Assembly: GCA_014871385.1 (NCBI GenBank)
Contig: CM026426.1
Location: forward strand, 108,398,565-108,462,564
Origin: Ceratodon purpureus
Lineage: Eukaryota; Streptophyta; Bryopsida; Pseudoditrichales; Ditrichaceae
Reading direction: 5' to 3'
DNA length: 64,000 nucleotides
Numbering within the stretch: the first letter of the stretch is position 1; every line of letters starts with the position of its first letter. The notes under the pieces are model-generated. The model saw nothing but the letters and a program-made list of their open reading frames with translations. It made no database searches and was not told the origin of the DNA. The translations under genes were made by a program, and so were the position numbers. Of the stretch, positions 8,871-53,557 are shown one piece after another.

Positions 8871-8980
8871 TCGTTGCCACTGTGTTGGACCATGTATGAG
8901 GTGTTGCCAGCAAACGCAAGGGACATTGACTTTTTTCATTTCCATGTCGCAGCTACCGACTGCTTGGGGAAAGTTCGTAT

Positions 8981-9084
8981 GTGAGCGGAGAGCGTAGAGC
9001 GGAGAGCGGAGAGCACAGAATGGAGAGCACAGAATTGACAATTAGCAAAATTTTCAAAAGCAAAGTAGACCCTATAACCGTGGA
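8981..9084 (+). repeat. Left terminal inverted repeat of the giant element
   Basis: Begins with repeated AGCGGAGAGC-type decamers and ends in the conserved block ACCCTATAACCGTGGA. Its counterpart at 29463-29655 is in opposite orientation. Confidence 0.65.
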
Positions 9085-9735
9085 AAATTTCTAAATTAAG
9101 GCTTGATTTTGACACTTTTTTTAGGAAAAGAGTATATTACCGTGGAAATCAGGATTATCTCTGGTAAGAATTTATTACGTTTGTTCTCTAAGATACAAAT
9201 TAGGGCTGATGTTATGATGACGTCATGCATATATTTTGTTATATTTCTCATGGATTTAGGCAAGATATAATGATCAGGCGTTAAGTTCTAGATCAAACAA
9301 TTAATTATTTCATAGGTTTATGTAAATGCAAAAGGAAAGAAACAAATTTCACAGAACATAAAGGAGGCAAGGTTTGAAAACTTCTTGGAATATTTCAAAA
9401 TTCGTGTATAATATCTTAACTGCTGAAACCAAGATATACCTTGTTAGAGTCCTTGTCTTCATCGAAGATTACTCTCTCTTCGTAGGCAGCAAAGCATCTT
9501 CATTTGAGTGATACAAGTAGGAGATTTTCATCATCAAACAACACTTGGTAAGCTGGGTTACAGAGAAGGAGGTCACTCTTGGTTTCTTGAGCTTGTCTGT
9601 AGGTGGCGTATTTGGATAGTGACACAGTCCTTGGCATGCTCTGCTGTATGCGAAGGTAGCATAGGAGTTCAGGGATGTCAATCTACAAGCTTGACTGTAA
9701 CGTTTGAAGACTACAAGAATTCTGTGTGTTGCGCG

Positions 9736-10122
9736 ATGCCGAAGGTGTGTAATGCGAGATCCAGGAGGACGAGAGCGGCTGTAGGTTTGCTCCCAAAGGC
9801 ACCGGCGAGTTATGAGGAGCTGCGGCCGTGGCTGCTGGAGGTGGAGCGCGCCAGGGAACGAGGAACGCGGCCGTGGCTGCTGGACTTGCCACCGTTTAGG
9901 CACATCGGAAGCCTCCATGTTGGTGAAGGTGAATGGCGTTGGACAGTGCTGTGTACCAATGAGCTTCTCCGTATTATGGAGTTGTCCCTAATCCCGTATC
10001 CCTTGCTATCGAACGTCGATGAGAATCCAGTTGTTCAGCTGCCCGAAGTGATCATATCGGATGGCGAAACTTGCTGGTTTGATATGGACAAGAGTTGGAC
10101 TGTATATCCTTCGAAGGATTAG
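9736..10122 (+). CDS. Short unknown protein (128 aa)
   Basis: Open from an ATG at 9736 to TAG at 10122; the frame is also open upstream to about 9508, so the true start may lie in an upstream exon. The protein begins MPKVCNARSRRTRAAVG (basic), then has two near-copies of RPWLLxVxR/RPWLLDLP (one following PASYEEL), and a C-terminal part with WFDMDKSWTVYP. No family was recognised. It is the first ORF inside the left inverted repeat and points towards the ParB/methylase-like gene, with which it converges. Its codon use looks like real protein, but function cannot be assigned; it could also be a captured exon. Confidence 0.4.
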   Translation: MPKVCNARSRRTRAAVGLLPKAPASYEELRPWLLEVERARERGTRPWLLDLPPFRHIGSLHVGEGEWRWTVLCTNELLRIMELSLIPYPLLSNVDENPVVQLPEVIISDGETCWFDMDKSWTVYPSKD

Positions 10123-10129
10123 TACTGTG

Positions 10130-10571
10130 AAGTCTAGTGGGGTGTTCGAATACATTCCTTTAGATTTAGGAATAAGAGAACTCGAAACCAACTAAAAGAG
10201 ATGGTCTTCAAAGTTCGTGGAATATTTCAGAGTTCGTGTAGAATAATGGAGTAGAAGAAACCAAGATGTACACCAAGTCAAGAATAGGTAACATGGCTAT
10301 GGAAATGTGGGATTTTGAATGATTAAAATATAAAATACAGCGCAATTAAAATTTTGAGCATTTCTTTTGTAACATTTCATTCTTCATATTATATTTTGAG
10401 CATTACGGTTGTGACATTTCATCCTCTACATAGGAGGAGACGATTTGGAAATGAGAATCGTAACAAGTATAGATTCAGGGTAGTAGAGTAGACGAAGGAT
10501 TACGCAATGAACTCCAATTAAATCAAATCAAATCCAATGAGAACAATGAAAGACCAAAGCCTCCTTCAGAC
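10130..10571. other. Intergenic spacer between convergent genes
   Basis: AT-rich; no gene seen. The near-repeat TTCGTGGAATATTTCAGAGTTCGTGTA (10210-10240) resembles TTCTTGGAATATTTCAAAATTCGTGTA at 9383-9410, so the short ORF is flanked by two related sequences. Confidence 0.45.
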
Positions 10572-13500
10572 TCAGAACATGCTACCATCGCTACTTCCAC
10601 TCTCAGAACTAGATGACTCTGAATCTCCTTCTACCGCCTCGTCATCGACGAATAGAAGGGCCTTGGGATCAAAAGTAGTTGGCCGACTAGGAACATATGT
10701 AAGGGCTCCAGATTGAAACGCCTGTGCTAAGTCCTCTGCGTAGTCCGGAAGTATGAAAGGCTGAATCGGGCTGGAATGAAGACGCCACGATGGAGTGGAC
10801 ACTGCTCTTGGCCCACGTGGTGGTGTTGCTGAAACTACTCTGCAATAGAGAACCGGTTGTGGTTAGATAGAGTACGTAGAGCTGGAAAGAGAAGTAATGA
10901 TTGGATAATTTGAACAAAGAATAGAAGACTTACACCACTTGTCAGGTCTTGCTCTCTTTGGAGGCGCTTCGCCTGCTGCTGCCGGCCTTGGATGTTTAGG
11001 AGGACCCATGGCGGATGGTTTGAGAAGGGCGTTGAATATGGCTTCGTCATCCTCAAAAGCGAGAATGTGACGACCAACAGCCTGGGCGGCCTTGATGGAG
11101 GCCCCTGAAACTCGGAGAGAAACAAAGAAATGAGAAACTGTGGGAAAAACGAGAGGAATAATTAAGCAGAGATATGTAAGAAGAGTTACCTGTCCCAGCA
11201 TTCCAATCAAGGACTATGTCGCCGGGCTTTGACAGCTCCTCAATTATGCCCTGCATCATCTCAGGGGATTTCTCCCTTGGGCCTCTCCACGGCACCTCCC
11301 CATTCATGAGCTGCGAGTCCAGATCGGTGAGGTTGAAAATGGCATCACTCTCGGTAATGTTGAGGAGCCCATGTATCAGCTCTTCCTTCTTCGTCTGGAA
11401 GGAGAAAGTACTGCCACTACGAACGTAGACGCGAATCCAGAACCGCATAGTCTGCAGTCAAGCAAAAGTAGTGAGTAAAATTAAGCGGAAGGGTTATCAG
11501 TAAGCGAAGAGAAGGGCATGTTCAGGAAAAGTACCAAGTTCTCGGGGTTCGTTGGAGAAGTGAGGCCGAGAACATTGACGCCCCACCAGTCCTTGAAGAG
11601 CACGTAGTCACCACCAGCAGCTTCTTCGTCGATATCCTTAGCCAGCTTCTGATCAGTGTTGTAGATGAGGCAGATGGCACCATCTTTCTGCAGGAATTCA
11701 TCTGCAAAACGGAAGATGTCGAACACATAATCCTTCTCGCGAGAGTTCCAAGGCGGAATACTCGTGGGGGGAACGGAAACGGATGGGACAGGAAGATTCT
11801 CAGGGATGTCGGCAATGATCAAGTCGACTCCCAGATGGTTCTCTTGTTTGCACCGGTCCGGAACTTCGTTTTCACGGCCTGCTCCAAACTTGAGCAAACA
11901 AGAAAGCAGAGTTAGTAACTACATAGCGAGTAGAGGTGGCAGAATCCATTAAATGTCAAAATATAGGAACAAACCTTGCGAATGAAGTCTTGAGTCTTGA
12001 TCCAATCCGGGTCGCCACCTTTTCTCTCCTGTCTCCTATTTCGCCGTAACATGGAATCCACAGATGAGTTGAAGACGGAAACATGTGTGGAAATCGAAGC
12101 TCCAGCGGAAGAAGTTGTTTGAGGATATATTTTGGCCTTCCTCTGCTGAAGGAGACCTCTGGTGATCTCCGAAGCACTGATCGAGGAAGGACCCGGTGAA
12201 GAAGTTGAAGAAGGCTTCGTAACGACATTACCCGGAGAGGGCTCTGGAGCCATCTGCTCTGGAGCGGAAGACGCCGCACCAGTTTGCTGTGAAGCTTGTG
12301 AAAGTGATCGCAAAGATTTCAGCCGCCGAGCTCTCCCTTTCTTCGGTGGAGGAGCCGATGATTGGTCTTCAGGGCCTTTGTCATCTTCAGGACCATCCAC
12401 CGTCTCTTCGACCACCACCTCACCCCCATCGTGTAAAGTCTTGATGTCCACCTCAGAGTCAATTGTGAAACCGCGAGAACAATCAAGGTACCAGCATCCA
12501 GCATCCAAATGAGGAGCTTTGTACCTTTTCAACTGCTGTGGAGAGTAGATACACTGGTCCGAGGTTGTCTGCGTCCAAGAAGGGAAGTAGCTGGGGAGCT
12601 GCTGGACCGTGATGGCCCCCTTCAAAAGAAGCTCTCGCTTGAAGTACCTAAGGGAAGAAATTTAGAAGGTTAGTAGCATAGAAAGCAATAGCGAATTATA
12701 ATATGCAAATCCAATACAGTTTCGTGACATACCGGAATATAACCCTCTTGACAACTTTAGCGGTTCCGAGGAATTTAGCGAAGTTGGACTTCTTGTCAAA
12801 GGGCTTCTCAGCCTTCTTCCCAATGAACGTAGGGAAGGCCTTGTCCCATAACATAATACGTGAACTCTCGACATAGTCGCCCGGCTGTTGGACATCAGGA
12901 AATGCCCTCCAATCGATATCGAGGTTCTCCGACTTGAATATGTCCTCGACCTCGTTGATGACGGCTTCCTCCAACTGTAATACAGAATTCAAATAAGTAC
13001 CAATGAGAGAAGAATTGAGAAAGCACTATTTAATTGGTAAGGCATATTTCGAAACCATACCCCAGCCCAGAATGAAGCCCTGTTCAACCAGGGGTCGAAA
13101 TCAATATCCTTGAATCCGGGCTTTGGAAATCTGTATGATAGTCTGGAACTCAGAGATGAGTTCCACCACCTCAGCCACCGAACCTTGTATTTGGGCTCAA
13201 CGGCCGCCGGACAGATCTTCTGGAGCTTATCGAGGGACATCTCAGGTTTTGAGTTCTGACTGTAATGCCGATTGATCTGCCAGGAGTAAAGAAGTATTAG
13301 AAACTATAATTGCATAATGTTGTAACAATTCAAAATACTATCTGAAATTAGATGAAGGTGACACCTCATTCAAGAAGTCGTCACCGTTCTTGGGATTTGC
13401 AATTGCCAAGTACTTGGTGAAGTCCTTATTCTTAATGGAGTCCACCATTTTCTCAGACGCTTCATTCATGATTTCCCAAACCGCAGATGCAGTCTGTTCA

Positions 13501-15246
13501 TCCGCCGGTGTCTTCTCCTTGTAGGCCTTAGCTGCTTCATCGGAGGCTACAGCAATTTCCCGCTGTAGAAGGATAATCATTTTTTAGGGAAATCATAAAT
13601 GAACGAAATAAAGCATTCAAAGAATGAGAGGAGATAAAACGAGCAAAGAGAGGGAGGAGGTAAAACTTACTCGGTAAAGAAATGCGATGAAAACTCGAGT
13701 AGTTAAGGGAAACCATGACGGGTTCGGTGGCTTGTTCTTCAAACAAGCATCGTATTCTTCCGGGTACAGGAGGTCCTTGAACTCCTCCAGCTTCATCATT
13801 CCGAATGAGCGGATTCGAAACAGTTTTGCTGGGAGATTATTCTTCACGTGGTCATTCTCAGTCGACCTGAGTATCTAATTAGTAAGTAAGTGCCATGAAA
13901 TATATTAGAAAAAGACTTCAAATGGATAACAAATGCTCAAGATTTTTGAACGTACCAATTGATGTCGTGCATGGCGTGCAAGAGATTGCCCACATGGCCA
14001 CGGGGGTCAAGTACAATGCAATGCACAGAGATGTGCCAGGATGGGTCGTCTGCATGGTGCTTGTTGATATGCCTTAGCCATGCGGAAAGGCGGTGATTAC
14101 CCTCCCAGACATAAAACACCTTGTGCGAGAACTGCATCAACTCCTCGTCCCCAGAGATCTCATCATCAAAACGATCACTCGCTGCCCTCCATAAAGGGCT
14201 CCAAGTGGCCATGATCTCCGCCGTCACATTCTTCGTTTGCTCTTCAATGTTGTACATGGAGATGTACATGACGCGGTCCCCATCTCTATATCCCTTAACA
14301 AACTCCCGCTCCAAGTGTTGTACCCCCATTTCACCCATTGGTCTAATCTTGGCCATTGGGATCATCCTGCATAGGGGCACCAGCATTCGCGACTTATGCG
14401 TGGGTTTGATCCTGAGGTTGTTGATGACGGCATTGGAGTCCAGCTTGTATTGTATTCGATGCTGCAATTCCCCTTCCATAGCAGTCTTCAAGTCAATCGG
14501 GCAAGATGGTTTTGCCAACACATCTTGTGTTTGAGTAACCTGCGAAGAGGTGTGCGAATTGAGAGAGGAATCACAATCAAAGGAAGTCATGCAAAGAAGA
14601 CAAGTATGTCAAAGAAAGTAACAATATATCTTCATACTGTCATCTCTTTTGTAACAAGTCAGAATTCATCTGCGCTTGGGGGAACTATCTACGTGATGCT
14701 CGACTATAGTACTCCTTAGACTGTCTACAGTTCCAGTGACGGCGCCTCCTCCAAAACCGCCTGGTTTGCTGAACCGGGCAGGGCAGAATTGCCGGTAGAG
14801 CGAACACCACATGCGCTGGCCTTCTCACTCTAATAGGCGATGAAGGAGAGGGTGGAGACATAGGCGGTGAGCCCTGTAGAGGGGAAGTAGGCATGTAGGC
14901 CGGGGACGTAGGCTCATACATTGGTGAGGTAGGCATGTACACGGGAGAAGTAGGCATGTACTGTGGAGAGTGGACCTCGAAAGGTCCACTATCTCCAACT
15001 ACAGGGTTGGCTACATCACAGGTACAATAAGGCTGATCAAATGAATCCGAGAGGTCGGAAACATTGATAACTGAAATGGGGGAGGTCGCGGACATCTCAG
15101 GAGCATCTGAATATACCTAGAGTAGAAGAAATGAAGAGAGGGTTATTTTCCACCTTTAAAAGAGTTGTAAGCAAAAAATTAAAAATAAGAGACAAGTAAT
15201 GTACCTCGGTCTCAGCTGGAGTTAGAACTTCACGTTCGCTCCCCAT
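10572..15246 (-). CDS. Multi-exon ParB-like / N6-N4 DNA methylase-like protein with CTD-like heptads
   Basis: Twelve exons can be placed by GT-AG signals and matching phase: 15246-15205, 15116-(donor unresolved), 14539-13956, 13866-13671, 13562-13365, 13276-13061, 12974-12733, 12647-11975, 11888-11535, 11451-11190, 11104-10934, 10837-10572. That predicts roughly 1,150-1,200 aa. The ATG at 15246 has an in-frame TAG upstream. Order: four RNA-polymerase-II-CTD-like heptads (exon 2), a ParB/sulfiredoxin-like segment (exon 3, [10 protein letters not shown]), linkers, a disordered Ser/Pro stretch (exon 8), a methylase motif-IV-like ADIPEN (exon 9), and motif I LDWNAGTG followed by [13 protein letters not shown] (exons 10-11). 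Motif IV before motif I fits the permuted beta class. The motif-IV aromatic is replaced (DIPE instead of DPPY), so activity is doubtful. The exon 11/12 join and exon 2 donor are uncertain. Confidence 0.7.
14877..14960 (-). repeat. Four tandem RNA polymerase II CTD-like heptads
   Basis: In frame within exon 2 of the ParB/methylase-like gene: [28 protein letters not shown], followed by an SP-rich tail. The RPB1 consensus is YSPTSPS; here Tyr1, Pro3, Thr4, Ser5 and Pro6 are kept in all four and position 2 is Met or Glu. Confidence 0.85.
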
Positions 15247-15448
15247 ATTATCCTCAGAAGACTCCTAATTCATACACAAAGAAATCGACTATCAGTGATA
15301 AAACAACTGTAAAGACAATTAAATGTGAATAAACATCCATCAAACCTCCATTCAAAATTATGGGTTAAGACAAATCTACAAGAAATATAACCAGAAGCTC
15401 AAGCCAGAGAACAAGGAAACTCCATCAATGTAACACATAATAAGAATT

Positions 15449-15528
15449 TTTCATTAAAAATTGAGGCCATCATTGCTATAGCTTTCTAGGCGTAGCTCCG
15501 GCCTGGGGGAATCGAACCCGATACTCTC
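15449..15528 (-). repeat. tRNA-like SINE fragment, copy 1 (inverted)
   Basis: The minus strand contains GGGTTCGATTCCCCCAGGCCGGAGCTA, a tRNA 3' half with a pol III B box (GGTTCGATTCC), followed by a tail also found at 15828-15908 in the opposite orientation. The 5' half with the A box was not seen, so this is a fragment, not a tRNA gene. Confidence 0.5.
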
Positions 15529-15539
15529 TACAAATAATA

Positions 15540-18500
15540 AACATTAAGCCCCAAGCCAAACAGCCCAAGGCAGCAGCATGCGATCAAACATCACCAATTC
15601 AAAGAACAAATAATGACCCGCACCCCTACTGTCGTCACAGACAGTAGGGTGCAAGGTCCATTTATACATTTAAAAATTCAAATCTTTAATCATCTAAAAG
15701 CAATAGAAAATCAGAAAATTAAAAAATAAAATAAAATAATAAACATTAAGCCCCAAGCCGAGCAGCCTAAGGCAGCAGCATGCGAGCAAACATCACCAAT
15801 TCAAAGAACATTTCAGTATGAAGAGAGTATCGGGTTCGATTCCCCTAGGCCGGAGCTACTCCTAGAAGGCTGTAGCAATGATGGCCTAAATTCTTAATGA
15901 AAAATTATTTCCCCTTCAAGTTTAAGAAAATGAAAAAATTAAAAAAAATAAAAAAATTAATAAACAATAAGCCCCAAGCCGAGCAGCCCAAGGCAGCAGC
16001 ATGCGAGCAAACATCACCAATTTAAAGAACAAATAATGACCCGCTCCCCTACTGTCGTCACAGACAGTAGGGTGCAAGGTCCACTTATACAGTTAAAAAT
16101 TCAAAACTTTAATCATCTAAAAGCAATAGAAAATCAGAAAATTAAAATTAAAAAAAAAATAATAAACATTAAGCCCCAAGCCGAGCAGCCCAAGGCAGCA
16201 GCATGCGAGCAAACATCACCAATTCAAAGAACAAATAATGACCCGCTCCCCTACTGTCGTCACAGACAGTAGGGTGCAAGGTCCATTTTTACAATTAAAA
16301 ATTCCAAACTTTAATCATCTAAAAGCAATAGAAAATCAAAAAATTAAAAAAATAAATAAATAAATAAACAATAAGCCCCAAGCCGAGCAGCCCAAGGCAG
16401 CAGCATGCGAGCAAACATCACCAATTCAAAGAACAAATAATGACCCGCTCCCCTACGGTCGTCACACACAGTAGGGTGCAAGGTCCACTTATACAATTTA
16501 AAATTCAAAACTTTAATCATCTAAAACCAATAGAAAATCAGAAAATTAAAATAAAAAAAAATAATAAACACTAAGCCCCAAGCCGAGCAGCCCAAGGCAG
16601 CAGCATGCGAGCAAACATCACCAATTCAAAGAACAAATAATGACCCGCAACTACTGTCGTCACAGACAGTAGGGTGCAAGGTCCACTTATACAATTTAAA
16701 ATTCAAAACTTTAATCATCTAAAACCAATAGAAAATCAGAAAATTAAAATAAAAAAAAAATAATAAACATTAAGCCCCAAGCCGAGCAGCCCAAGGCAGC
16801 AGCATGCGAGCAAACATCACCAATTCAAAAAACAAAAAATGACCCGCCCCCCTACTGTCGTCACAGACAGTAGGGTGCAAGGTCTAATTATACAATTTAA
16901 AATTCAAAACTTTAATCATCTAAAACCAATAGAAAATCATAAAATTACAAAAAAAAATAAAAATAAACATTAAGCCCCAAGCCGAGCAGCTCAAGGCAGC
17001 AGCATGCGAGCAAACATCACCAATTCAAAGAACAAATAATGACTCGCAACTACTGTCGTCACAGACAGTAGGGTGCAAGGTCCATTTTTACAATTAAAAA
17101 TTCCAAACTTTAATCATCTAAAAGCAATAGAAAATCAGAAAAATTAAAATAAAAAAAAAATTAATAAACACTAAGCCCCAAGCCGAGCAGCCCAAGGCAG
17201 CAGCATGCGAGCAAACATCACCAAGTCAAAGAACAAATAATGACCCGCCCCCCTACTGTCGTCACAGACAGTAGGGTGCAAGGTCCACTTATAAAATTTA
17301 AAATTCAAAACTTTAATCATCTAAAACCAATAGAAAATCAGAAAATTAAAAAAAAAAAAAATAATAAACAATAAGCCCTAAGCCGAGCAGCCCAAGGCAG
17401 CAGCATGCGAGCAAACATCACCAATTCAAAGAACAAATAATGACTCGCTCCCCTACTGTCGTCACAGACAGTTGGGTGCAAGGTCCTTTTTTACAATTAA
17501 AAATTCCAAACTTTAATCATCTAAAAGCAATAGAAAATCAAAAAATTAAAATAATAAATAAATAAATAAACAATAAGCCCCAAGCCGAGCAGCCCAAGGC
17601 AGCAGCATGCGAGCAAACATCACCAATTCAAAAAACAAATAATAACCCGCTCCCCTACTGTCGTTACAAACAGTAGGGTGCAAGGTCCACTTATACAATT
17701 TAAAATTCAAAACTTTAATCATCTAAAACCAATAGAAAATCAGAAAATTAAAATTAGAAAAAAATAATAAACATTAAGCCCCAAGCCGAGCAGCCCAAGG
17801 CAGCATCATGCGAGCAAACATCACCAATTCAAAGAACAAATAATGACCCGCTCCCCTACAATCGTCACAGACAGTAGGGTGCAAGGTCCACTTATACAAT
17901 TTAAAATTCAAAACTTTAATCATCTAAAACCAATAGAAAATCAGAAAATTAAAATAAAAAAAAAATAATAAACATTAAGCCCCAAGCCGAGCAGCCCAAG
18001 GCAGCAGCATGCGAGCAAACATCACCAATTCAAAGAACAAATAATGACCCGCTCCCCTACTATCGTCACAGACAGTTGGGTGCAAGGTCCACTTATACAA
18101 TTTAAAATTCAAATCTTTAATCATCTAAAAGCAATAGAAAATCAGAAAATTAAAAAAAAAAAAAAATAATAAACATTAAGCCCCAAGCCGAGCAGCCCAA
18201 GGCAGCAGCATGCGAGCAAACATCACCAATTCAAAAAACAAATAATAACCCGCTCCCCTACTGTCGTCACAAACAGTAGGATGCAAGGTCCAATTATACA
18301 ATTGAATATTCAAATCTTTAATCATCTAAAAGCAATAGAAAATCAGAAAATGAAAATAAATAAACAAATAATAAACACTAAGTTCCAAGCCCAGCAGCCC
18401 AAGGCAGCAGCATGCGAGCAAACATCACCAATTCAAAGAACAAATAATGACCCGCTCCTCTACTATCGTCACAGACAGTAGGGTGCAAGGTCCACTTATA

Positions 18501-21500
18501 AAATTTAAAATTCAAAACTATAATCATCTAAAACCAATAGAAAATCAGAAAATTAAAATAAGAAAAAAATAATAAACATTAAGCCCCAAGCCGAGCAGCC
18601 CAAGGCAGCAGCATGCGAGCAAACATCACCAATTCAAAGAACAAATAATGACCCGCTCCCCTACTGTCGTCACAGACAGTAGGGTGCAAGGTCCATTTAT
18701 ACAATTAAAAATTTAAAACTTTAATCACCTAAAACCAATAGAAAATCAGAAAATTAAAATAAAAAAAAAAATAATAAACATTAAGCCCCAAGCCGAGCAG
18801 CCCAAGGCAGCAGCATGCGAGCAAACATCACCAAGTCAAAGAACAAATAATGACCCGCCCCCCTACTGTCGTCACAGACACTAGGGTGCAAGGTCCACTT
18901 ATACAATTTGAAATTTAAAACTTTAATCATCTAAAACCAAAAGAAAATCAGAAAATTAAAATAAGAAAAAAATAATAAACATTAAGCCCCAAGCCGAGCA
19001 GCCCAAGGCAGCAGCATGCGAGCAAACATCACCAATTCAAAAAACAAATAATGACCCGCCCCCCTACTGTCGTCACAGACAGTAGGGTGCAAGGTCCACT
19101 TATACAATTTAAAATTCAAAACTTTAATCATCTAAAACCAATAGAAAATCAGAAAATTAAAATAAAAAAAAAATAATAAACATTAAGCCCCAAGCCGAGC
19201 AGCCCAAGGCAGCAGCATGCGAGCAAACATCACCAATTTAAAGAACGAATAATGACCCGCTCCCCTACTATCGTCACAGACAGTTGGGTGCAAGGTCCAC
19301 TTATACAATTTAAAATTCAAATCTTTAATCATCTAAAAGCAATAGAAAATCAGAAAATTAAAATAAAAAAAAAATAATAAACATTAAGCCCCAAGCCGAG
19401 CAGCCCAAGGCAGCAGCATGCGAGCAAACATCACCAATTCAAAAAACAAATAATAACCCGCTCCCCTACTGTCGTCACAAACAGTAGGATGCAAGGTCCA
19501 ATTATACAATTGAATATTCAAATCTTTAATCATCTAAAAGCAATAGAAAATCAGAAAATGAAAATAAATAAACAAATAATAAACACTAAGTTCCAAGCCC
19601 AGCAGCCCAAGGCAGCAGCATGCGAGCAAACATCACCAATTCAAAGAACAAATAATGACCCGCTCCTCTACTATCGTCACAGAGAGTAGGGTGCAAGGTC
19701 CACTTATACAATTTAAAATTCAAAACTTTAATCATCTAAAACCAATAGAAAATCAGAAAATTAAAATAAAAAAAAAATAATAAACATTAAGCCCCAAGCC
19801 GAGCAGCCCAAGGCAGCAGCATGCGAGCAAACATCACCAATTCAAAGAACAAATAATGACCCGCTCCCCTACTATCGTCACAGACAGTTGGGTGCAAGGT
19901 CCACTTATACAATTTAAAATTCAAATCTTTAATCATCTAAAAGCAATAGAAAATCAGAAAATTAAAATAAAAAAAAAATAATAAACATTAAGCCCCAAGC
20001 CGAGCAGCCCAAGGCAGCAGCATGCGAGCAAACATCACCAATTCAAAAAACAAATAATAACCCGCTCCCCTACTGTCGTCACAAACAGTAGGATGCAAGG
20101 TCCAATTATACAATTGAATATTCAAATCTTTAATCATCTAAAAGCAATAGAAAATCAGAAAATGAAAATAAATAAACAAATTATAAACACTAAGTTCCAA
20201 GCCGAGCAGCCCAAGGCAGCAGCATGCGAGCAAACATCACCAATTCAAAGAACAAATAATGACCCGCTCCTCTACTATCGTCACAGACAGTAGGGTGCAA
20301 GGTCCACTTATAAAATTTAAAATTCAAAACTATAATCATCTAAAACCAATAGAAAATCAGAAAATTAAAATAAGAAAAAAATAATAAACATTAAGCCCCA
20401 AGCCGAGCAGCCCAAGGCAGCAGCATGCGAGCAAACATCACCAATTCAAAGAACAAATAATGACCCGCTCCCCTACTGTCGTCACAGACAGTAGGGTGCA
20501 AGGTCCATTTATACAATTAAAAATTTAAAACTTTAATCACCTAAAACCAATAGAAAATCAGAAAATTAAAATAAAAAAAAAATAATAAACATTAAGCCCC
20601 AAGCCGAGCAGCCCAAGGCAGCAGCATGCGAGCAAACATCACCAAGTCAAAGAACAAATAATGACCCGCCCCCCTACTGTCGTCACAGACACTAGGGTGC
20701 AAGGTCCACTTATACAATTTGAAATTTAAAACTTTAATCATCTAAAACCAATAGAAAATCAGAAAATTAAAATAAAAAAAAAAATAATAAACATTAAGCC
20801 CCAAGCCGAGCAGCCCAAGGCAGCAGCATGCGAGCAAACATCACCAAGTCAAAGAACAAATAATGACCCGCTCCCCTACTATCGTCACAGACAGTAGGGT
20901 GCAAGGTCCACTTATATAATTTAAAATTCAAAACTTTTATCATCTAAAAGGAATAGAAAATCAGAAAATTAAAATAAAAAAAATAATAATAAACATTAAG
21001 CCCCAAGCCGAGCAGCCCAAGGCAGCAGCATGCGAGCAAACATCACCAATTCAAAGAATAAATAATGACCTGCCCCCCTACTGTCGTCACAGACAGTAGG
21101 GTGCAAGGTCCACTTATACAATTTAAAATTCAAAACTTTAATCATCTAAAACCAATAGAAAATCTGAAAATTAAAAAAAATAAAAAAATGATAAACATTA
21201 AGCCCTAAGCCGAGCAGCCCAAGGCAGCAGCATGCGAGCAAACATCACCAATTCAAAGAACAAATAATGACCCGCTCCCCTACTCTCGTCACAGACAGTA
21301 GGGTGCAAGGTCCACTTATACAATTTAAAATTCAAAACTTTAATCATCTAAAACCAATAGAAAATCTGAAAATTAAAAAAAATAAAAAAGTGATAAACAT
21401 TAAGCCCTAAGCCAAGCAGCCCAAGGCAGCAGCATGCGAGCAAACATCACCAATTCAAAGAACAAATAATGACCGGCCCCCTACTCTTGTCACAGAGAGT

Positions 21501-22245
21501 AGGGTGCAAGGTCCACTTATACAATTTAAAATTCAAAACTTTAATCATCTATAAGCAATAGAAAATCAGAAAAATAAAAAAAATAAAAAATAATAAACAT
21601 TAAGCCCCAAGCCGAGCAGCCCAAGGCAGCAGCATGCGAGCAAACATCACCAATTCAAAGAACAAATAATGACCCTTCCCCCCTACTGTCGTCATCAACA
21701 GTAGGGTGCAAGGTCCAATTATACAATTGAAAATTCAAATCTTTAATCATCTAAAAGCAATAGAAAATCAGAAAATTAAAATAAAAAAAAAAAATAATAA
21801 ACACTAAGTTCTTAGCCGAGCAGCCCAAGGCAGCAGCATGCGAGCAAACATCACCAATTCAAAGAACAAATAATGACCCGCTCCCCTACTGTCGTCACAG
21901 ACAGTAGGGTGCAAGGTCCACTTTTAAAATTCAAAATTGAAAACTTAAATCATCTAAAAGCAATAGAAAATCAGAAAATTAAAATAAAAAAAAAATTAAT
22001 AAACACTAAGCCCCAAGCCGAGCAGCCCAAGGCAGCAGCATGCGAGCAAACATCACCAATTCAAAGAACAAATAATGACCCGCTCCCCTACTGTCGTCAC
22101 AGACAGTAGGGTGCAAGGTCCATTTATACAATTTAAAATTCAAAACTTTAATCATCTAAAAGCAATAGAAAATCAGAAAATTAAAAAAAAAAAAAAAATA
22201 ATAAACATTAAGCCCCAAGCCGAGCAGCTTTAGTTAGCAGCATGC
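15540..22245 (+). repeat. Satellite array: about 33 units of ~201 bp with a conserved palindrome
   Basis: Each unit has a GC-richer core (AAGCCCCAAGCCGAGCAGCC, then GGCAGCAGCATGCGAGCAAA), a perfect hairpin site CCCTACTGTC-GTCACA-GACAGTAGGG, and an AT-rich spacer ending in an A run. Unit spacing is about 195-206 bp. Subsets repeat at 604 bp (19489 and 20093) and at 1812 bp (18281 and 20093), showing three-unit higher-order structure and internal segmental duplication. The early units are interrupted near 15830 by a tRNA-like fragment. Short ORFs across the array are only reading frames through the repeat. The array lies between the ParB/methylase-like gene and the SWIM transposase, inside the giant-element candidate. 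Confidence 0.9.
15828..15908 (+). repeat. tRNA-like SINE fragment, copy 2
   Basis: GGGTTCGATTCCCCTAGGCCGGAGCTA followed by a tail ending ATGAAAAATTA. It is inverted relative to 15449-15528 and is inserted within the first satellite units. Confidence 0.5.
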
Positions 22246-22807
22246 GAGCAAAGACAAGCACAAATGTTGAGAATGTCCAAGCAGCATCAAGCAAAGCCAA
22301 ACCCAAATACCGAAGCGAAACCCCATTAAAACCAAGAAATTCCCAAGGGAAACCCTATCAAAAACCCGAATACTGAAGCAGAATCCTTGAGACCGCAACC
22401 TCTAGAAACGCCTTAATCCACTTTCCTCAATCCAGAACACCAATTTCAGACTCATAACTCGAATCACAATGATTTCTACAAAGACAAACTCTGTCGACCC
22501 GTACAACATGCTTGAATGACCAGAATTCAATACCCCAAGGCTTCATTTCCGTGCAATCGAGTACTGCTCCAACATTCAAACCCCAGCACATTTGAAACGA
22601 GTATTGACCCACTCCCCCCACCTCCAACCCGCAACCAAGAAAATATCGCAAGCCACTAACCCACAACCCAGACAACCCACAACCTAGATCACATCAACAT
22701 CGATTGACTCCAAGTCAAACCCAATCAACCCGTACATTGGAATCCGTACAGCCTCAATTCATGACCCAAGATCCGTACAGCAAAACATTCAAACACAAGC
22801 TTCTTAC
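22246..22807 (-). other. Probable intron or spacer downstream of the acidic exon
   Basis: No ORF of interest. On the minus strand this follows the donor GTAAGAAG of the exon at 22808-22999 and looks like a plant intron that runs into the satellite array. No downstream exon was identified. Confidence 0.4.
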
Positions 22808-22999
22808 CTCCTCCTCGCGGTCTTCCTCCCCATCGTCCCCGTCCGTCCTCTCCTCCTCCTCATTCGCGTCCACGGGAAGCCCTAGCTGCTCCACCTCTTC
22901 TCCTAGCTCCTCCGCGGCCATCTCAAGATCCTGCCCTGCGGCCTCTTCTCCGTCCAGCTCAACAGGCCCGGCCCTCACCTGCTCCTCTCTCGCAGCCAT
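22808..22999 (-). pseudogene. Acidic first exon of an unidentified gene (64 aa, then intron donor)
   Basis: From an ATG at 22999 the frame encodes MAAREEQVRAGPVELDGEEA and continues as a strongly acidic, Glu/Asp-rich segment (EEEERTDGDDGEEDREEE). It ends in phase 0 at a good donor, GAG|GTAAGAAG (22808). The frame is open upstream for another 28 codons without an ATG. No matching second exon was found; the sequence continues through an intron-like stretch into the satellite. It looks like the 5' end of a host gene that was captured or interrupted. No domain was recognised. Confidence 0.4.
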
Positions 23000-23288
23000 A
23001 GCCTCGCCCCCTTCACCTGCTCCCAATATCTCACTCCTCGCCCTCCTCGCAATAACAAGCAGATGTTCGAGCTCGCCACCCACTGAACCTCTACACGACT
23101 CTCCTAATACCCTTATCCTCTGGTTACTCTACGCATATTTTCAAAAAATTTACAACCATTTCAGTTCCGCGGCATTTACGTGAGGTTAAGCAGATCATTT
23201 GTTACTTTCCCAAAATTAATATACATTTTTTAAATAGTGATGCTTCTACTCTTTAGAACACTTAATTGATTTAAAGAATGCACAGCAG

Positions 23289-23759
23289 TCAAGACGGTGT
23301 ACAAAAGCTTACCTGCTCGGAGTTGAAATATAAATCTGATTGAGAATCCGGCTCCCCTGTCGAAAATTCATTGAAAGAAATAGAAGGTTGCGGTGACTCT
23401 ACTCTTTGACTACAATTAAACACTAATTCTTCCGTCATGGCCTCACGAGCATCTCTACTTCCAAGTACCTCCTGTTCCTGCTCTTGATTACCGACTACGG
23501 TGTTCTCTAAAAACTCTTCCTTCTCCTCCACTATAGAGTCTAGAATAACTTTGCGAATGCTAGAAAACTTCAAAGCTACTGGCAGACCTGCTCCTCTCCT
23601 TTTCACGGGTGCATTCAAATGGTCACCTTTCAAACATAACTTCTTACGAGACTCTCTTCTCTTCCTCGCTCTTCTATCCGTAAAATCTGTACGACCTGGT
23701 TTTCTTCTAGGTTTAGGAGTGACATAAGTAGAGGGAGATGGACCTCCACTCTGCTTCAT
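23289..23759 (-). CDS. Small basic-to-acidic ORF of the giant element (156 aa)
   Basis: ATG at 23759, stop at 23289. The N-terminal third is very basic, with PKPRRKPGRTDFTDRRARKR and a second cluster APVKRRG that look like nuclear localisation or DNA-binding signals. The C-terminal half is acidic and Ser/Glu-rich (VEEKEEFLENTVV...). It lies about 0.6 kb upstream of, and divergent from, the SWIM-finger transposase, and resembles in size and layout the other small minus-strand ORF at 28298-28750. Accessory transposon proteins are often small, charged and nuclear, but no family was recognised; that role is inference. Confidence 0.4.
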   Translation of the reverse strand: MKQSGGPSPSTYVTPKPRRKPGRTDFTDRRARKRRESRKKLCLKGDHLNAPVKRRGAGLPVALKFSSIRKVILDSIVEEKEEFLENTVVGNQEQEQEVLGSRDAREAMTEELVFNCSQRVESPQPSISFNEFSTGEPDSQSDLYFNSEQVSFCTPS

Positions 23760-23819
23760 GTGTCTAACCAAAAAGACTCTCTCATAAAAAGGCTCTCTGG
23801 AGAACTTCCTACGTGCTTA

Positions 23820-24364
23820 AATACCTTTATCGAACAACTATTTTAATACAACCATAAGAACATATAGAATATTAACCGCTGACACATGTATTACACTCTT
23901 TATATTAGGATTACCAATAACAATTCTATAATTAAAGTACAGTTTAAAATATCATCCTTTAAATACAAAGAAGAAATCCGAGCACACTAAAAATTAAAAG
24001 ATTTGAATCAAGCACTTCAATACATGCTCCTTTTTTTATTTATTGTCTTAAATGTAGAAAATAAAAGACGGCTCATTGTACTCTTATAATATATCATAAC
24101 CAATAGAATCCGCTTCACGATTCAAATTGTTAAAGTACAGTTCTAAAATACTTAGACCTGCAAAAAGTGGCATTGTAATTAGTTAGCGCCGTCTCTTTTA
24201 AATCTTACATTCGTTACCTAACAGAATGAATCATTCTCCAGCTGTTCACGTGGACATTCCGACCTGAATAAAATGATCAACAGCGATGCATCATTCCTCT
24301 CACTTTGCACTCGCGATACGGCATTGCTAATACACTCTCTCTTGTACTCTTTGCGTCTGCAATC
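23820..24364. other. AT-rich divergent spacer
   Basis: No gene seen. It separates the small minus-strand ORF from the rightward transposase gene and would contain both promoters; no clear TATA element can be singled out in the AT-rich background. Confidence 0.35.
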
Positions 24365-27300
24365 ATGGGGATGGTCTGTCTGTACGCCCAAGGCATGGGC
24401 ATCCCTCTTAGGTTTCGCGTAGATAACGATGGTCTAGCTATTGTTTCCTCTCTTCGCCTGAGTCTCAGATTCCATTTCCGTGAGGACACCATCAGTATAG
24501 AGGAGGAGATCTTTGATAACGTTACTGCCGAGGTTACCCACACCCTCGGGCAACCTTCAGTGAGAGATGAGAACAACATGTTGCAGTGGAGACTCCTCCC
24601 TGGATCCTATAGAGTCTATGGTCTTACTAATTCTCTGATGGCTGCATCCACTGAGATCCTCACCCCCCGTCGCTCTTCTACTTGCACAATTCAGACTCCC
24701 TTACCTCGTGATGTCAAAGTCAAAGTCGAGCCTGGTACCGAGACTTCAGATGTAGAGAAACCTCCTCCGACCGTCATATCTCTCTCTTCTGATGACGAAG
24801 TCAGTCCCGTCAAGTTGGTGCCTAAGGTCCACGCAGATGCTCCTCCTTCCAATGTGTCTCCTCCATTGTCCCAGGTCACAGTTAGCATTGTTCCGCTCCT
24901 TAAAGAGATTGCTAAGACGCGTGGGTCAAAAAACATTTTGAAGAAGATAGACTATTCCACTATTAGACACGAGAGAGTTGAGTACTTGCCTGCGAAGTTT
25001 GATGGTCCGGTTCTTTTTGAGTTGCCCCCAGCTGCTGCAGGATCCTCTAAGCTCGCCGCCAAGTCTATGCAGGGAATGGACAAACGATACGACGGACACT
25101 TGTGGACCAAGACCATCACAACAAACATCAAAAACGACTTCGGACTCTCTTTTCGAAGTTCCACCTGCGTCGGATGGCTCCGCTGCAGCAACCCGGAGTG
25201 TGACTTCCTGAAGCGTGTTCCGAAGATCTTCGAGGTTAACGAGACTGAGTTCGAAGGCTGTACCCTGCAAGCTTTTGTCATGGACCAGCCTCCTCCATCT
25301 GACTCCACGCTAGTGTGCAAGGTATGTAAAGAACCTCCATCATGTGTAGCTACATGCGAGGCTAAGATTTATTACGTTGTGGGCAAACCGAATCAGACTA
25401 GAGCTTGTATTCACATAGGAACACATGATCATCCAGTGAAAGTAGGAGACTACAGAGACTCTAAAGCAGAGATTAGTAGCTTAATAGAAGAGCAGGTAGA
25501 GATGAACAACAAAGCAACAAAGAGCGCCGTTGTCCTGGAGGCGAGCAAACTCCTCATCGGGAGCTACCTGCTACAGCCCGAGGATGCACCACCGAGGAAG
25601 CTGACGATGGAGGAGCTGGTTCCTGTTCTGGATCGCTGCAAAGACATGGCGTCACCAAACATCCGCAACAAAGTCGCCACCTTCAAAAAATTCAAAAGGT
25701 ACGGAATCATGGACGGTATCACCAAGCTCCGTGGTAACAGTCTCTGGGCATATGTCCAAGAGAATAGGTTTCCTGGTCAGGGATCCATGCGTGACAAAGT
25801 CTTCCTCTTCAAGATGTCGGAGGTCCGCCCGGGAAGTGGTGTCGACTTGGTCAGCCGAATGCAAGCTGGTGGCGACTTGGAGAACGCATGGATCATGTTC
25901 GACCATGTAAAACGCGTCAAAGATTGGTCGACGATGGCGTGCCATGTGTACGACGCCACCTACTGCCGCGTGATGACAATCGCCACTTGCGACATGCAGT
26001 CCGAGGACACGGAGGCCCAGCTCGTCTTCTGGAAAAACCTGAACCTGGTCATGGAGATCAATGGCGTTGCAGCGCCGAACTTCAAGGGGTTCATGGCGGA
26101 TAACGCACAGGCGAATTGGAATGCAGTGCGAATCCTTTACGGCAATGGCAACAAAGAGGACCCAATGGAGGACCGGGAGAGGTCGTGCTTGTTCCACTGG
26201 ACTCAGAACATGGTGGCGTATACGCAGAAGCACTTCCCCGAAGAACTCTGGGAACAGCACAAGAAGATGTGCACTCAGTACAAGAATGCGACCAGCATGG
26301 CAGAGGCGGAAACTCTGTACCACGCGTTGCGAGCATGGTGGGCATCCACCGGGGTCGTTGGCGAGAGCGGGCTCATCAAACTCGATCAGTGGCTGTCATT
26401 CTGGCACCACCGCTTCCGCCAGTGGGGGGGATTCATGACCGAGGTATTCTCTCTGCACTCTGATTTGATGTTTTTGATACTGGTTTCCTATCCCAAATCT
26501 ACAAAACTCTAATCCAAGAATCTAACGGCACCTACTGTCAAAACTGCAGAAATTCACGAAAGAGGAACTCACAGAGATGTCCACCTGTAACCTCGCCGAA
26601 ACAGTTCACAACAAGTGGCTCCAAGCTTCAGGAAACAACGGGAACGACCTCTACGTTGCTACCGTGGACGATTTTGTTTGGGCTTTTCTACAGGTTGTCA
26701 ACTACTACCAGTTCCTCAAAGGTGACGTCGGCGGAACAGGACCATCGAAGAAGGAACTCCGGCTCCAGATGGCTGAACGCAACGCAAAGAAATGGGGAAA
26801 TCCTACACTGCTCGATAAGCCCATGCTCGATATGCCAGGCGCGGATGAGTTCTGCACCCGTCAGCCTATCATGCCTGGAGCGGAAGTCTTCGGTTCACAG
26901 AAGCGAAAAGCCGACGTCCCCATCGGAGCTGACGAGGAGTCTCATCGCCCGGACAAGACAAACTTCTCACGCCCAAGAGGCCCAAGACGTGCCGTCAGGG
27001 CTCGCCCTATGCAGATGCCCGTCATTGTGGAAGACGACTCCGAACACGACACCGAGGTACAATGTACCCAACCTCGTGCCCAGGAAGTTGATTCCCCTTT
27101 ACCTTCACCTGTGAACAAGGGCGGCATTCGCCATGTCAACGCGGTTGAGGAAATGAAGGTCGACGTGAAGGAATGGCACATTTCCAGACTTCACAAACTT
27201 TCTGCGAAGTGCTGCTGGGCCCAAAGAGCTGAAACGAAGAAGAAGTGCACTGAGAGAATCGTCAGAGGGCCCCTTTGCACAGCTGCACCGACCTACACTG

Positions 27301-28043
27301 GGCTGTGGACTAACTATCGCAGGAACACAGTCGAGAAGACAGAGTTCTTCTTCTACTCCGACGATATTGAGCGCTGCGTGAAAGGCTCTAAGCGCAAGTG
27401 GGTAGCGCACTACTCAAAGGACCAGGAATTCCCCTCCATTCCTGAGGTCTGGCCAGTGAAACTAGGTACTAACCTAAAACTGACTGAGATTCTTGCCCTC
27501 GAAGCAGCGGGCTTTCAACTTCCGCCGAAGAAACCCGTTTCCCCAAGACGCCTGTTCTCTTCTGCCCCGGCCCCTGCAAATCTCAGCTCAGTGCCAGTCC
27601 CTGCAGACGCTGACCGCTACCCAGGCAAGAGAGACGGCAAGATGATTAAGCGCACTGCCACTCGTCCCAATCCGGCGCAGGGACTATCCATGGGCTCCTC
27701 CGAGTCTCTCAAAGCGCGCCTCCGTTCCGTCACCATGATACCTGAGCCGGGCCACGGTTGCATCATTGGGCTGGATTCGGGCGTCGCTCCACACATCACA
27801 CGTTACGAGATTACCATCAGTTCTTACCCTGGTTGCACTTGCCCAGCATTCAAGAAGACGATGACTACGTTCAAAGGCAGGACTCAGTTCACGTATTGTA
27901 AGCACCTTTACTACATACTCTTGAAGGTCTGCAACCGTGATCCCGAGGCCGAGCTTTTCATCCATGCGCCTACCTTTAGCTTGAACGAGGTCAAGCTTCT
28001 CCTAGAGAGTGGAATCTTGCGTCACCCCTTGGCGAAGAAGTAG
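24365..28043 (+). CDS. MULE-like transposase with SWIM zinc finger
   Basis: Two exons, 24365-26443 and 26550-28043; the 106-bp intron (26444-26549) joins ...FMTE to KFTKEELTEM in frame. About 1,190 aa from the first in-frame ATG. Order: N-terminal region with a SUMO-site-like VKVEPG (about residue 118) and SUMO-interaction-like VISLSSDDE (about 135); a cysteine module CVGWLRCSNPECDFLKR; the pair CKVCKEP...CVATC; and a transposase-like core with HVYDATYCRVMTIATCDMQ, then FMADNAQANWNAVR and CLFHWTQ, which I read as the D...D region of an RNase-H-fold MULE-type enzyme. A C-terminal SWIM finger follows, CTCPAFKK...FTYCKHLYYIL (CxC...CxH). Such enzymes cut and paste DNA at terminal inverted repeats. 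The frame is open throughout, so it may be functional. The catalytic Glu is not assigned. Confidence 0.72.
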
Positions 28044-28049
28044 GTAGCC

Positions 28050-28290
28050 CTCCTACTTTAGAACTGCCGTTTCCACAATGGCCATTTGTCACGTAGTGAA
28101 TGATTTTAGTAATATACCATGTACTAAGTCAGCTATTCAGAAGCTGTATTGACTTTTTCATTATATTAAAGGCTTTGTCGTTCGCATTGATTGCACTCTA
28201 TTTCAATACATTCTATCTTGAAGAAGTGTAATATATACCTCGTATCCCCTGACATGTACCATTTATTACGGCAAACATATACTTGTTATT
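28050..28290 (+). other. 3' flank of the transposase gene
   Basis: AT-rich, no ORF; contains ATTATATTAAA and AATATATAC stretches that could serve for polyadenylation. It separates convergent genes. Confidence 0.35.
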
Positions 28291-28297
28291 AGATGTC

Positions 28298-28750
28298 TCA
28301 ATCTTCGAACCTAACACGTTTAGGGTTGCCCACTACACTATCAGCAGGACTGCCAGCCTCTGACTGTACTACAGGACAAACTACATTTGCATTCACTTTC
28401 GTTCCAACACTTGGCAAGTGTCCTTGGTATGAACGTTTCAGCAATGGCCCACCTCCCCGCCTCCGATTCACTGATTCCCTGGAATAGGTTCCCCTTGGGA
28501 TCTTTCCAACCCTGGAGTATGCATGAGTTTGCAAAGGCACATCTGCGTTCTCCTCTAGCACTCTGATATCATCCGAATTTTCTGAACGTAGAGGTTCAGC
28601 TCTTACATCCGGTTGTACGTCAACATCCGTTGTCAAAGGACGCCCTTGGCTGTTGGCCATCACCTCTTCTTCGTCCTCGACCTCAACATATGGTTGAAAT
28701 GGACAAACACCGTCAGCAAGTGATACAACAATATCTCTAACGTCTTCCAT
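28298..28750 (-). CDS. Small charged ORF of the giant element (150 aa)
   Basis: ATG at 28750, stop at 28298. The N-terminal half is acidic (VEVEDEEEVMANSQG), followed by a Ser/Asp-rich middle (SENSDDIRVLEENADV) and a basic C-terminal half with VNRRRGGGPLLKRSYQGH and a final NPKRVRFED. No domain was recognised. Converging on the transposase and similar in size, orientation and charge pattern to 23289-23759, it may be a second accessory protein; both may be first exons only. A loosely similar small charged minus-strand ORF lies at 62340-62798 in the CpG-rich insertion. Confidence 0.4.
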   Translation of the reverse strand: MEDVRDIVVSLADGVCPFQPYVEVEDEEEVMANSQGRPLTTDVDVQPDVRAEPLRSENSDDIRVLEENADVPLQTHAYSRVGKIPRGTYSRESVNRRRGGGPLLKRSYQGHLPSVGTKVNANVVCPVVQSEAGSPADSVVGNPKRVRFED

Positions 28751-28759
28751 AACTGCTGT

Positions 28760-29462
28760 CCCGCACTACGGAAAAGAGCTTCACAAAACACCAACAGAAA
28801 AGAGGAAGAGACATACAATAATCCCACCTTAAATATCCGTGAAGATGATGCTTGGCGCCCTTGAAAACCGGCTTTTCATTGATTCGAAAGTTGTCGTCCT
28901 AAAATGAATGAAAAAGGATGAGGGTTGAGCAGAAGTCATTTAGCATTTAAAATTTTAAATAAAAAATTAAAAAAAAAAAAATAAAAAAATAAAATAAAAT
29001 TATAAAAAATGAAATTAGAAAAAGAAAAGTAAACAAAAGGAAAAATAAATATTAAGGTTGAAAAAAATATGAAGGCGATTGAGAAAATAAAAGAGAAAAT
29101 AAAATGAAAGAGAATTAAAGGATAGGACTCTTTTGACCCCTTTAACAAGATAGATAGAATAATGGAAGTTAATATAAAAAATAAAAGATAAAAAGTTGTA
29201 AGGCATGTAGACTATGGCGGATGAATTCTAGCAATGTTAAGAAAATGTTAGGAAATTAAATGTTACTTGATTCCTTTTAAAAGGTTCAACACCAGTACAT
29301 TTTAAGTAGTAATTTGCATATAAATTTGAGGAGATAAGGGAAATTAATGTATGCCTGAACTAGTTAGAAGGAGCTGGAGCATAATAATTGGTGCACACTA
29401 AAAAATTAATCACCAAGAAAAGAGAAAACGAACTACAAATTCAATGAAAATACTGTAATTAA
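28760..29462. other. AT-rich subterminal region
   Basis: Long A/T runs (28955-29110) and no coding sequence. It lies just inside the right inverted repeat. Confidence 0.4.
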
Positions 29463-29655
29463 TCCACGGTTATAGGGTCAATAAAATTACTAAAATTAGT
29501 AACTTTCTAAAAATATACTAATAATATTCGAATCTTCTAATTTTATAATTTATTTTTAGTAAAAAAATTGCTATTTTAAGGTTCTGTCCCCCATTCTGTG
29601 CTCTCCGTTCTCCAAATCTGCGCTCACCGCTCTCCGCTCTGCGCTCTCCGCTCAC
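29463..29655 (-). repeat. Right terminal inverted repeat of the giant element
   Basis: In reverse complement it reads GTGAGCGGAGAGCGCAGAGC, then GAGAGCACAGAATGG, and ends at ACCCTATAACCGTGGA, matching the left end at 8981-9084 in order. The spacer between the second and third blocks is about 90 bp longer. Confidence 0.65.
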
Positions 29656-29700
29656 GTACAAGCTACGTCCATTTGTGCATGGCTCGTGAATTGATTTCGG

Positions 29701-53499: not shown

Positions 53500-53557
53500 T
53501 TACCAATGACCAATTACAATCTGAGAAACCACCAATCTCTTCAGGGATTTACGGATA

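Follow-up and report, generated by a model that had tools for sequence, protein, structure and literature searches.

Features of the locus

The DNA analyzed here (the window) is a stretch of 64,000 nucleotides from the moss Ceratodon purpureus, located at C6:108398565-108462564 in a genome that comprises 151 contigs and 362,488,568 bases. It holds an element of 20,705 bp (8966-29670; positions are those of the window) in which a transposase gene, a methylase-like accessory gene and a satellite array lie between facing inverted ends. Since contig C6 is 110,524,308 bases long and the sex chromosomes of this species have been given as 110.5 and 112.2 Mb (PMC9273592), C6 was taken, from its size, to be a sex chromosome. 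The initial annotation had read the locus as a giant inverted-repeat transposon with three ordered blocks shared by its facing ends. All three blocks were found in the same order at both ends: an outer block of 48 nt (8972-9019 and 29617-29664, 88% identity), CACAGAATGG at 9014 (left) and 29591 (right), and GACCCTATAACCGTGGA at 9068-9084 and 29463-29479. Compared in inverted orientation, the two ends scored 66.2 bits at best; 200 shuffles that preserve dinucleotides reached no more than 31.0 bits and 68 other block pairs of the window no more than 45.5 bits, and each end, when used as a query against the whole window, gave strong matches at the two ends alone. The inverted ends were thus confirmed, while comparison with other genomic copies moved each terminus outward by 6 bp, to 8966 and 29670, with GGGGAAAGTTC at the left terminus.

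The outer part of the ends is a run of GAGAGCG-type heptads. The left terminal inverted repeat (8966..9035, + strand) reads GGGGAAAGTTCGTATGTGAGCG followed by these heptad repeats, its terminus being fixed by the target duplications of other copies. It is followed by subterminal motifs (9068..9150, + strand; CCCTATAACCGTGGA at 9071 and a second ACCGTGGA at 9139, with a counterpart on the − strand at 29463), which are candidate transposase-binding sites. The right terminal region (29463..29670, − strand) carries heptad repeats, CACAGAATGG and CCCTATAACCGTGGA, and is outermost ...GTACAAGCTACGTCC.

As annotated, a SWIM-type transposase gene lies between the ends (24365..28043, + strand; 1,190 aa), with two exons (24365-26443 and 26550-28043) and one final stop. 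Transposases of Mutator-like elements (MULEs) have DDE residues, a C2H motif between the second D and the E, and a SWIM zinc finger, and MULE target duplications measure 8-11 bp. The predicted protein has D530, D578, C608-x2-H611, E710 (within NLAETVHNKW) and a SWIM finger, CxC..CxH, at 1122-1145 (CTCPAF..YCKH). It had 131 database homologues. The first D was kept in 108 and the second in 100 of 121 aligned rows, gaps being counted as misses, and the E and the SWIM finger were compared with one relative only, P0032. This protein (1,278 aa) matched both exons with ~75 residues between the matches at the place of the intron, which is what a frame running through this intron would give. A relative in public data showed 98.6% identity over 694 residues, and searches of viral contigs and GTDB genomes with the transposase or the ParB-like exon described below found no relatives. 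Because this motif order is accompanied by a 10-bp target duplication in the family, the element is best read as MULE-like.

On the − strand, a second gene was modeled (10572..23759; 14 exons, ~1,420 aa) that is open from its ATG to a single terminal stop, with the frame kept and GT-AG borders at all thirteen introns. From its start, the model comprises acidic/basic N-terminal exons (23759-23313 and ~23128-22808), a small exon (15264-15205), a YxPTSPx-repeat exon (15116-14829), the ParB-like exon (14539-13956), which is the conserved region used for the family analysis, further exons at 13866-13671, 13562-13365, 13276-13061, 12974-12733 and 12647-11975, the methyltransferase-domain exons (11888-11535, 11451-11190 and 11104-10934) and a last exon (10828-10572). 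For the beginning of exon 2 and for the donor placed at 14829 there were several options, of which one was chosen, and the connection of the two N-terminal exons to the remaining ones is a prediction. A cargo of several genes, including small charged open reading frames, had been proposed for this region. The cargo is there, and is best read as this one 14-exon gene plus the transposase gene; the charged frames at 22.8-23.8 kb are present as well, and may represent exons 1 and 2 of the methylase gene rather than separate genes, although they could still form a gene of their own. Exon 1 was found in six and exon 2 in five of eight other elements. The intergenic region between the two divergent genes (23760..24364) is a putative promoter region common to both.

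The heptads of the YxPTSPx exon (14829-15116, − strand), of the YMPTSPV type, resemble the tail of RNA polymerase II. The exon matched the Pfam profile RNA_pol_Rpb1_R below its cutoff (E 0.0026), and the repeats were kept in all eight distinct genomic sequences, the rows of C9_33B and C9_33A being the same DNA.

Genomic copies, target duplications and an empty site

The left end (129 bases) gave at least 40 genomic matches of 98-100% identity (the best 40 of 1,062 candidates), the right end (201 bases) at least 40 of 97-100% (the best 40 of 1,340), and the ParB-like exon at least 150 full-length or nearly full-length matches of 81-100% (the best 150 of 1,899), the window's own copy being included in each case. 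Pairs in the expected orientation among the matches listed numbered 3 for left and right ends, 5 for left end and ParB-like exon, and 7 for ParB-like exon and right end, with the window pair in each, as compared to 0, 0 and 1 in the respective controls with a flipped partner. Seven loci from the left-end match list were fetched and compared, one of which, C9_33, holds two elements (A and B). Both ends and both genes were present in C11_05 (15,609 bp), C8_91 (22,840 bp) and C9_62 (14,806 bp). C9_33A (9,815 bp) carries part of the accessory gene without a transposase gene of its own, no transposase was found within the 30 kb read of C10_54, and C12_127, C6_274 and C9_33B were read in part. Exon 1 of the transposase gene was free of stops in the window, C11_05 and the two parts of C9_33B, and had one stop each in C12_127 and C6_274 and two each in C8_91 and C9_62. 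A contig of 674,632 bases shared between the lists of transposase and ParB-exon homologues, which had served as a stand-in for linkage, was dropped in favor of these genome data.

Other two-ended copies, which the initial annotation had proposed to look for together with target duplications of 8-11 bp and an empty site, were found in the genome: 12 copies, including the window copy, were read at both ends, and these range from 9.8 to 34.7 kb. Perfect 10-bp target duplications flank 11 of the 12, the window copy being the exception. They were seen in C11_05, C8_91, C9_62 and C9_33A and in seven end-only copies (ends 11,887 to 34,683 bp apart) anchored at GGGGAAAG, each with all 10 duplication bases matching; the left end differs by one base in C12_235, C1_183, C7_69 and C5_184, and C12_748, whose left end lies beyond the fetched stretch, is outside this count. 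C9_33A is inserted within the transposase gene of another copy, and the same ten bases flank the insert on both sides. The empty counterpart of this site is the window's own transposase gene, which is uninterrupted at 25908-25917, so that a filled and an empty site were seen in the same genome. The 10-bp duplications and this pair of sites therefore establish that the family transposes with a 10-bp duplication. With inverted ends at many genomic places and target duplications beside them, the family is a DNA transposon family, and the reading of the locus as a giant inverted-repeat transposon is supported.

A tandem array with a recurrent palindrome in the second intron of the gene model

The palindromic satellite of the initial annotation is present as an array of a 201-bp unit x 33 (15532..22252), which fills the second intron of the accessory gene model (15265-22807). 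In it, the palindrome CCTACTGTC-N6-GACAGTAGG (class 1, ~24 bp) occurs 11 times exactly and 32 times when up to 3 mismatches are allowed; none of these 32 lies outside the array in the window, and 40 shuffled half-sites gave at most 1 match. The same intron slot was read in 28 copies, of which those fetched after the left-end loci were picked from the ParB match list and had no stop in the exon, and an array was called at a tandem period of at least 40 bp. A tandem array occupied the slot in 26 of the 28 copies, with best-row periods of 117, 128, 129, 171, 191, 201-203, 209-214 and 441 bp. Monomers were related among close copies, and a wholly private satellite for each copy was dropped as a description, since close copies have related arrays. 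Some distant pairs were ~70% alike over part of the unit, and others matched over a short stretch or not at all.

The short stretch common to otherwise unmatched monomers is the class-1 palindrome. It was exact in 20 of the 28 copies (spacer of 4-7 allowed) and carried one mismatch in L041 and C10_54. Five copies have other palindromes, with half-sites read by eye from the best dyads: GGC(A/T)TTC-N6-GAATGCC in C11_05 and C9_33B, CAAGTGTC-N6-GACACTTG in C6_274, GGCTCTGCC-N6-GGCAGAGCC in L045, and a longer dyad in the array of C8_91. Across 47 fetched loci of at least 2 kb (286,118 bases, some overlapping), 154 of 158 class-1 matches (up to 1 mismatch) lay in or within 250 bases of arrays, and the remaining four were in the slot stretches of L042 (2), L046 and C10_54. 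These data show a conserved slot with a tandem array in which the monomers are replaced but a ~24-bp palindrome usually stays. Noncoding tandem repeats that diverge fast around a conserved short motif are also the mark of VANDAL-type elements. An inverted pair of 91 nt adjoins the array (15442-15532 and 15819-15909) and contains GGGTTCGATTCCCC, which resembles a tRNA B box; the pair recurs in several related copies.

On a tree of the ParB-like exon from 23 copies, two pairs have supported clades of their own (each 100/99), C11_05 with C9_33B and C6_274 with L045. The latter pair is nested in a larger supported clade of 19 whose other members are the class-1 copies; C8_91 and C12_127 fall elsewhere. 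The palindrome classes thus broadly follow the tree of the exon. In six copies with transposase exon 1, that exon was 96-98% identical to the window, as compared to 69-93% for the ParB-like exon: the ParB-like part and the array vary, and the transposase is common to the copies.

Conservation of the accessory protein

The ParB/methylase-like gene of the initial annotation held up in its methylase part: the C-terminus of the accessory protein matched the Pfam profile N6_N4_Mtase (PF01555) with an E-value of 1.8e-7 and 31.7 bits against a cutoff of 26.7, over profile positions 163-217 of 221 only, and it also matched phage methyltransferase profiles. Motif IV precedes motif I in beta-class methyltransferases, and the accessory protein has the same order. 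Its profile match, which takes in the S-adenosylmethionine (AdoMet) motif, is that of a beta-class N6/N4 amino-methyltransferase. The ParB part of the label gained no profile support, and the ParB identity of the exon is unproven. The exon had 69 database homologues, and phage records, of which 72 had methyltransferase matches, gave only weak matches to it (E 5 or more).

Among 22 sequences, the ParB-like exon had a median ratio of nonsynonymous to synonymous substitution rates (dN/dS) of 0.154 (range 0.08-0.58) in the 175 of 231 pairs whose dS lay within 0.03-1.5; C12_127, which lacks one residue, was left out, and the pairs closest to the window had ratios of 0.29-0.40. This comparison of sequences shows purifying selection on the exon in the open copies compared. 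Among the 150 exon matches listed, 129 had no stop and 21 had stops, and this proportion and the low dN/dS indicate that the accessory gene is kept open during multiplication in most of the copies listed. Stops were found in 14 of the 57 listed matches on C6 versus 7 of the 93 elsewhere (Fisher p 0.006), and copies on the presumed sex chromosome perhaps decay faster.

Interpretation and alternatives

We consider it likely that these copies form a high-copy family of giant MULE-like cut-and-paste transposons with an accessory protein that recognizes its own palindromes. The accessory gene and the array look like a self-recognition system of a mobile element. The accessory protein, with its ParB-like region and methyltransferase-like domain of altered motif, would bind the palindromes in the intron of its own gene, and by binding many sites at once it would recognize and coat only its own lineage. 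Such coating could keep silencing marks off the divergent promoter region or help the transposase, much as VANC proteins do through the tandem repeats of Arabidopsis VANDAL MULEs. Escape from small-RNA silencing by the host would then favor replacement of the monomers and retention of the bound palindrome. A more specific version, in which the altered-methyltransferase ParB-like protein and the palindrome array co-evolve as a partition-like or self/non-self module by which each lineage addresses only itself, with everything else in the satellite being exchanged between copies, is put forward tentatively, as a possibility that we would not bet on.

Several observations weigh against this reading of the family. 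The transposase family had no significant Pfam match. None of 30 transposase rows (29 relatives plus the window) matched the MULE-domain profile, even with E values of up to 10 allowed, and a single row gave a weak match to PF00872 Transposase_mut (0.18). For the ParB label, no match was found in Pfam, NCBIfam, PHROGs or PDB sequences. The absence of stops and gaps from the 23 copies in which the ParB-like exon was read is partly an effect of selection, because most exons were picked from stop-free matches, and the dN/dS values may be biased downward by the same picking. As to the gene model, exon 2 was not found in C6_274, C10_54 and C9_33A, and where it matched in C11_05 and C9_33B, the match is not followed by the strong GTAAG donor seen in the window. 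Support for linking the charged exons with the ParB-like exons comes from the window's reading frame only. No array was detected in the slot of C10_54 and L042, and the array of C12_127 is short (2.9 units) and lacks a clear palindrome. The 128-bp monomers of the sister copies C6_274 and L045 are related (66.5% identity) and yet differ in their best palindromes; because the two also nest in the class-1 clade, protein and site are not one-to-one, and a strict match of ParB sequence to palindrome, which had been considered, is weakened.

The window copy also counts among these observations, since it is the sole one of the 12 without a target duplication: 4 of the 10 bases match, and a first scan of its flanks gave nothing above background. 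It has probably been rearranged since insertion. There is a fair prospect, if one somewhat short of even, that it is a composite, formed when recombination, perhaps within the array, brought together the ends of different insertions. The gene modules of the copies form mosaics, as in the accessory gene of C10_54, which is 95% identical to the window in the ParB-like exon and 59% in a methyltransferase exon, a pattern that would reflect exchange of modules between elements. Deletion of one flank would also explain the missing duplication, however, and other copies have the same order of ends and genes with perfect duplications. A composite origin would bear on the history of the window copy only, and not on the family.

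That the array is passive, growing by slippage or unequal exchange, with the dyad kept since hairpins aid expansion or fold in the intron RNA, seems rather unlikely. The units can form hairpins at their dyads, one dyad of the 128-bp arrays of C6_274 and L045 seems by eye to keep its pairing through paired changes despite a different sequence, and array length varies greatly, from 1.9 to 41 units (several fetched stretches stop inside the array). What speaks against a passive array is that the class-1 sequence itself, beyond its pairing, was kept across otherwise dissimilar monomers, whereas expansion driven by hairpins predicts no common motif in unrelated monomers.

The methyltransferase domain raises the question of whether the protein is an active enzyme that marks the palindromes as self by N4-methylcytosine (4mC) or N6-methyladenine (6mA), as an analogue of bdelloid N4CMT or of restriction-modification systems. 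The profile match above the Pfam cutoff favors such activity, as does DWNAGTG, which stands at the AdoMet-motif position in 5 of 8 copies. At the motif-IV position, assigned from motif order, the methyltransferase exon (11535..11888, − strand) reads ADIPE and not DPPY, which is a further point against the reading given above. The catalytic motif (S/D/N)PP(Y/F/W) of N6/N4 beta-class enzymes is thus missing, and DIPE was found in all 13 aligned sequences and in all 8 genomic copies having this exon, the window's own included. In the bdelloid enzyme N4CMT, a change of SPPY to APPA abolished addition of 4mC (PMC8885841). Because motif IV reads DIPE, methylation activity may be absent, and an active methyltransferase is quite improbable here; the conserved change suggests that the function of the domain is kept but altered. 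A large multi-exon gene is unusual for a transposon, but the idea that unrelated repeats simply flank two ordinary host genes, the methylase-like one (as a single-copy gene) and the SWIM gene, is hardly credible in view of at least 150 dispersed matches to the ParB-like exon, some in pairs at a fixed relation to the ends.

Comparison with known systems

A close parallel is found in Arabidopsis, where the VANC proteins of VANDAL MULEs bind to tandem repeats that are noncoding and contain specific motifs, and cause silencing marks to be lost; these repeats diverge rapidly (PMC10398659). As described there, VANDAL elements resemble the moss family in being Mutator-type elements with an accessory gene besides the transposase and with fast-diverging noncoding tandem repeats that hold short motifs; family-specific recognition was shown for VANC and is proposed for the moss family, and the terminal inverted repeats are degenerate in VANDALs and clear in the moss. 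The moss accessory protein differs from VANC in its methyltransferase domain, and the moss repeats differ in having units of 117-441 bp, up to 41 copies, a palindrome and a place in an intron of the gene model. Maize MuDR and Pack-MULEs share with the moss family terminal inverted repeats, a DDE transposase and a target duplication in the usual 8-11 bp range. In KIU and ULP1 MULEs the extra gene has a protease domain, as opposed to the methyltransferase-like protein of the moss family, and we know of no intron satellite in them. Bacterial parABS systems pair a ParB protein with clustered palindromic sites. The likeness to them, in the clustered palindromes, applies only if the ParB label holds, and the moss element is a eukaryotic transposon in which no ParA was noticed.

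The KIU-carrying Vandal elements and ULP1-domain MULEs resemble the moss family in joining a MULE to an extra conserved gene (PMC13317346). No Pack-MULE of Jiang et al. exceeded 7 kb according to a review (PMC6431247), as compared to 9.8-34.7 kb and a large multi-exon gene in the moss family. The same review describes enlarged En/Spm elements of Chondrus crispus (16-20 kb, 4-5 open reading frames), which are likewise giant DNA transposons but are set apart, by that description, as CACTA-type elements. Bdelloid N4CMT is, like the moss protein, a eukaryotic protein with an N6_N4_MTase domain and has transposons among its targets; it differs as a rotifer gene with SPPY, a chromodomain and active 4mC (PMC8885841), whereas the moss protein is transposon-borne with DIPE. 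In the open-licence literature, judged on titles and abstract openings, no description of this combination was recognized. The MULE-like transposon is of a known kind, and its accessory system is without a counterpart found in the literature searched.

Other features of the window

Within the element, an open frame of 204 aa (9508..10122, + strand) adjoins the left end, and this stretch recurs in six fetched elements at 92-95% DNA identity; another of 155 aa (28298..28765, − strand) lies tail-to-tail with the transposase gene. Just beyond the right end, a reading frame at 30109-32121 (+ strand) is RING-like by eye and has an in-frame TGA at 30382. Further on, there are copia-type frames at 40-42 kb (RVT_2) and piggyBac-type transposase frames (DDE_Tnp_1_7) at 44110-47355 and 58556-59860 (+ strand), of which the first has an extended arginine/glycine-rich part. 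Among the genes noticed in the window, the one that most clearly looks like a host gene encodes, by eye, an NFU-type iron-sulphur scaffold protein (53525-54256, + strand).

Significance

The family brings together three fields that are mostly treated separately: giant DNA transposons, the occurrence of bacterial-type methyltransferases in eukaryotes, and how satellite DNA originates. Its copies form a natural series in which the satellite changes around a constant motif, and with both protein variants and candidate sites present in a single genome, what selection acts on within such an array can be tested directly. As a dispersed transposon, it is a possible source of new satellites on the presumed sex chromosome and the autosomes of C. 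purpureus.

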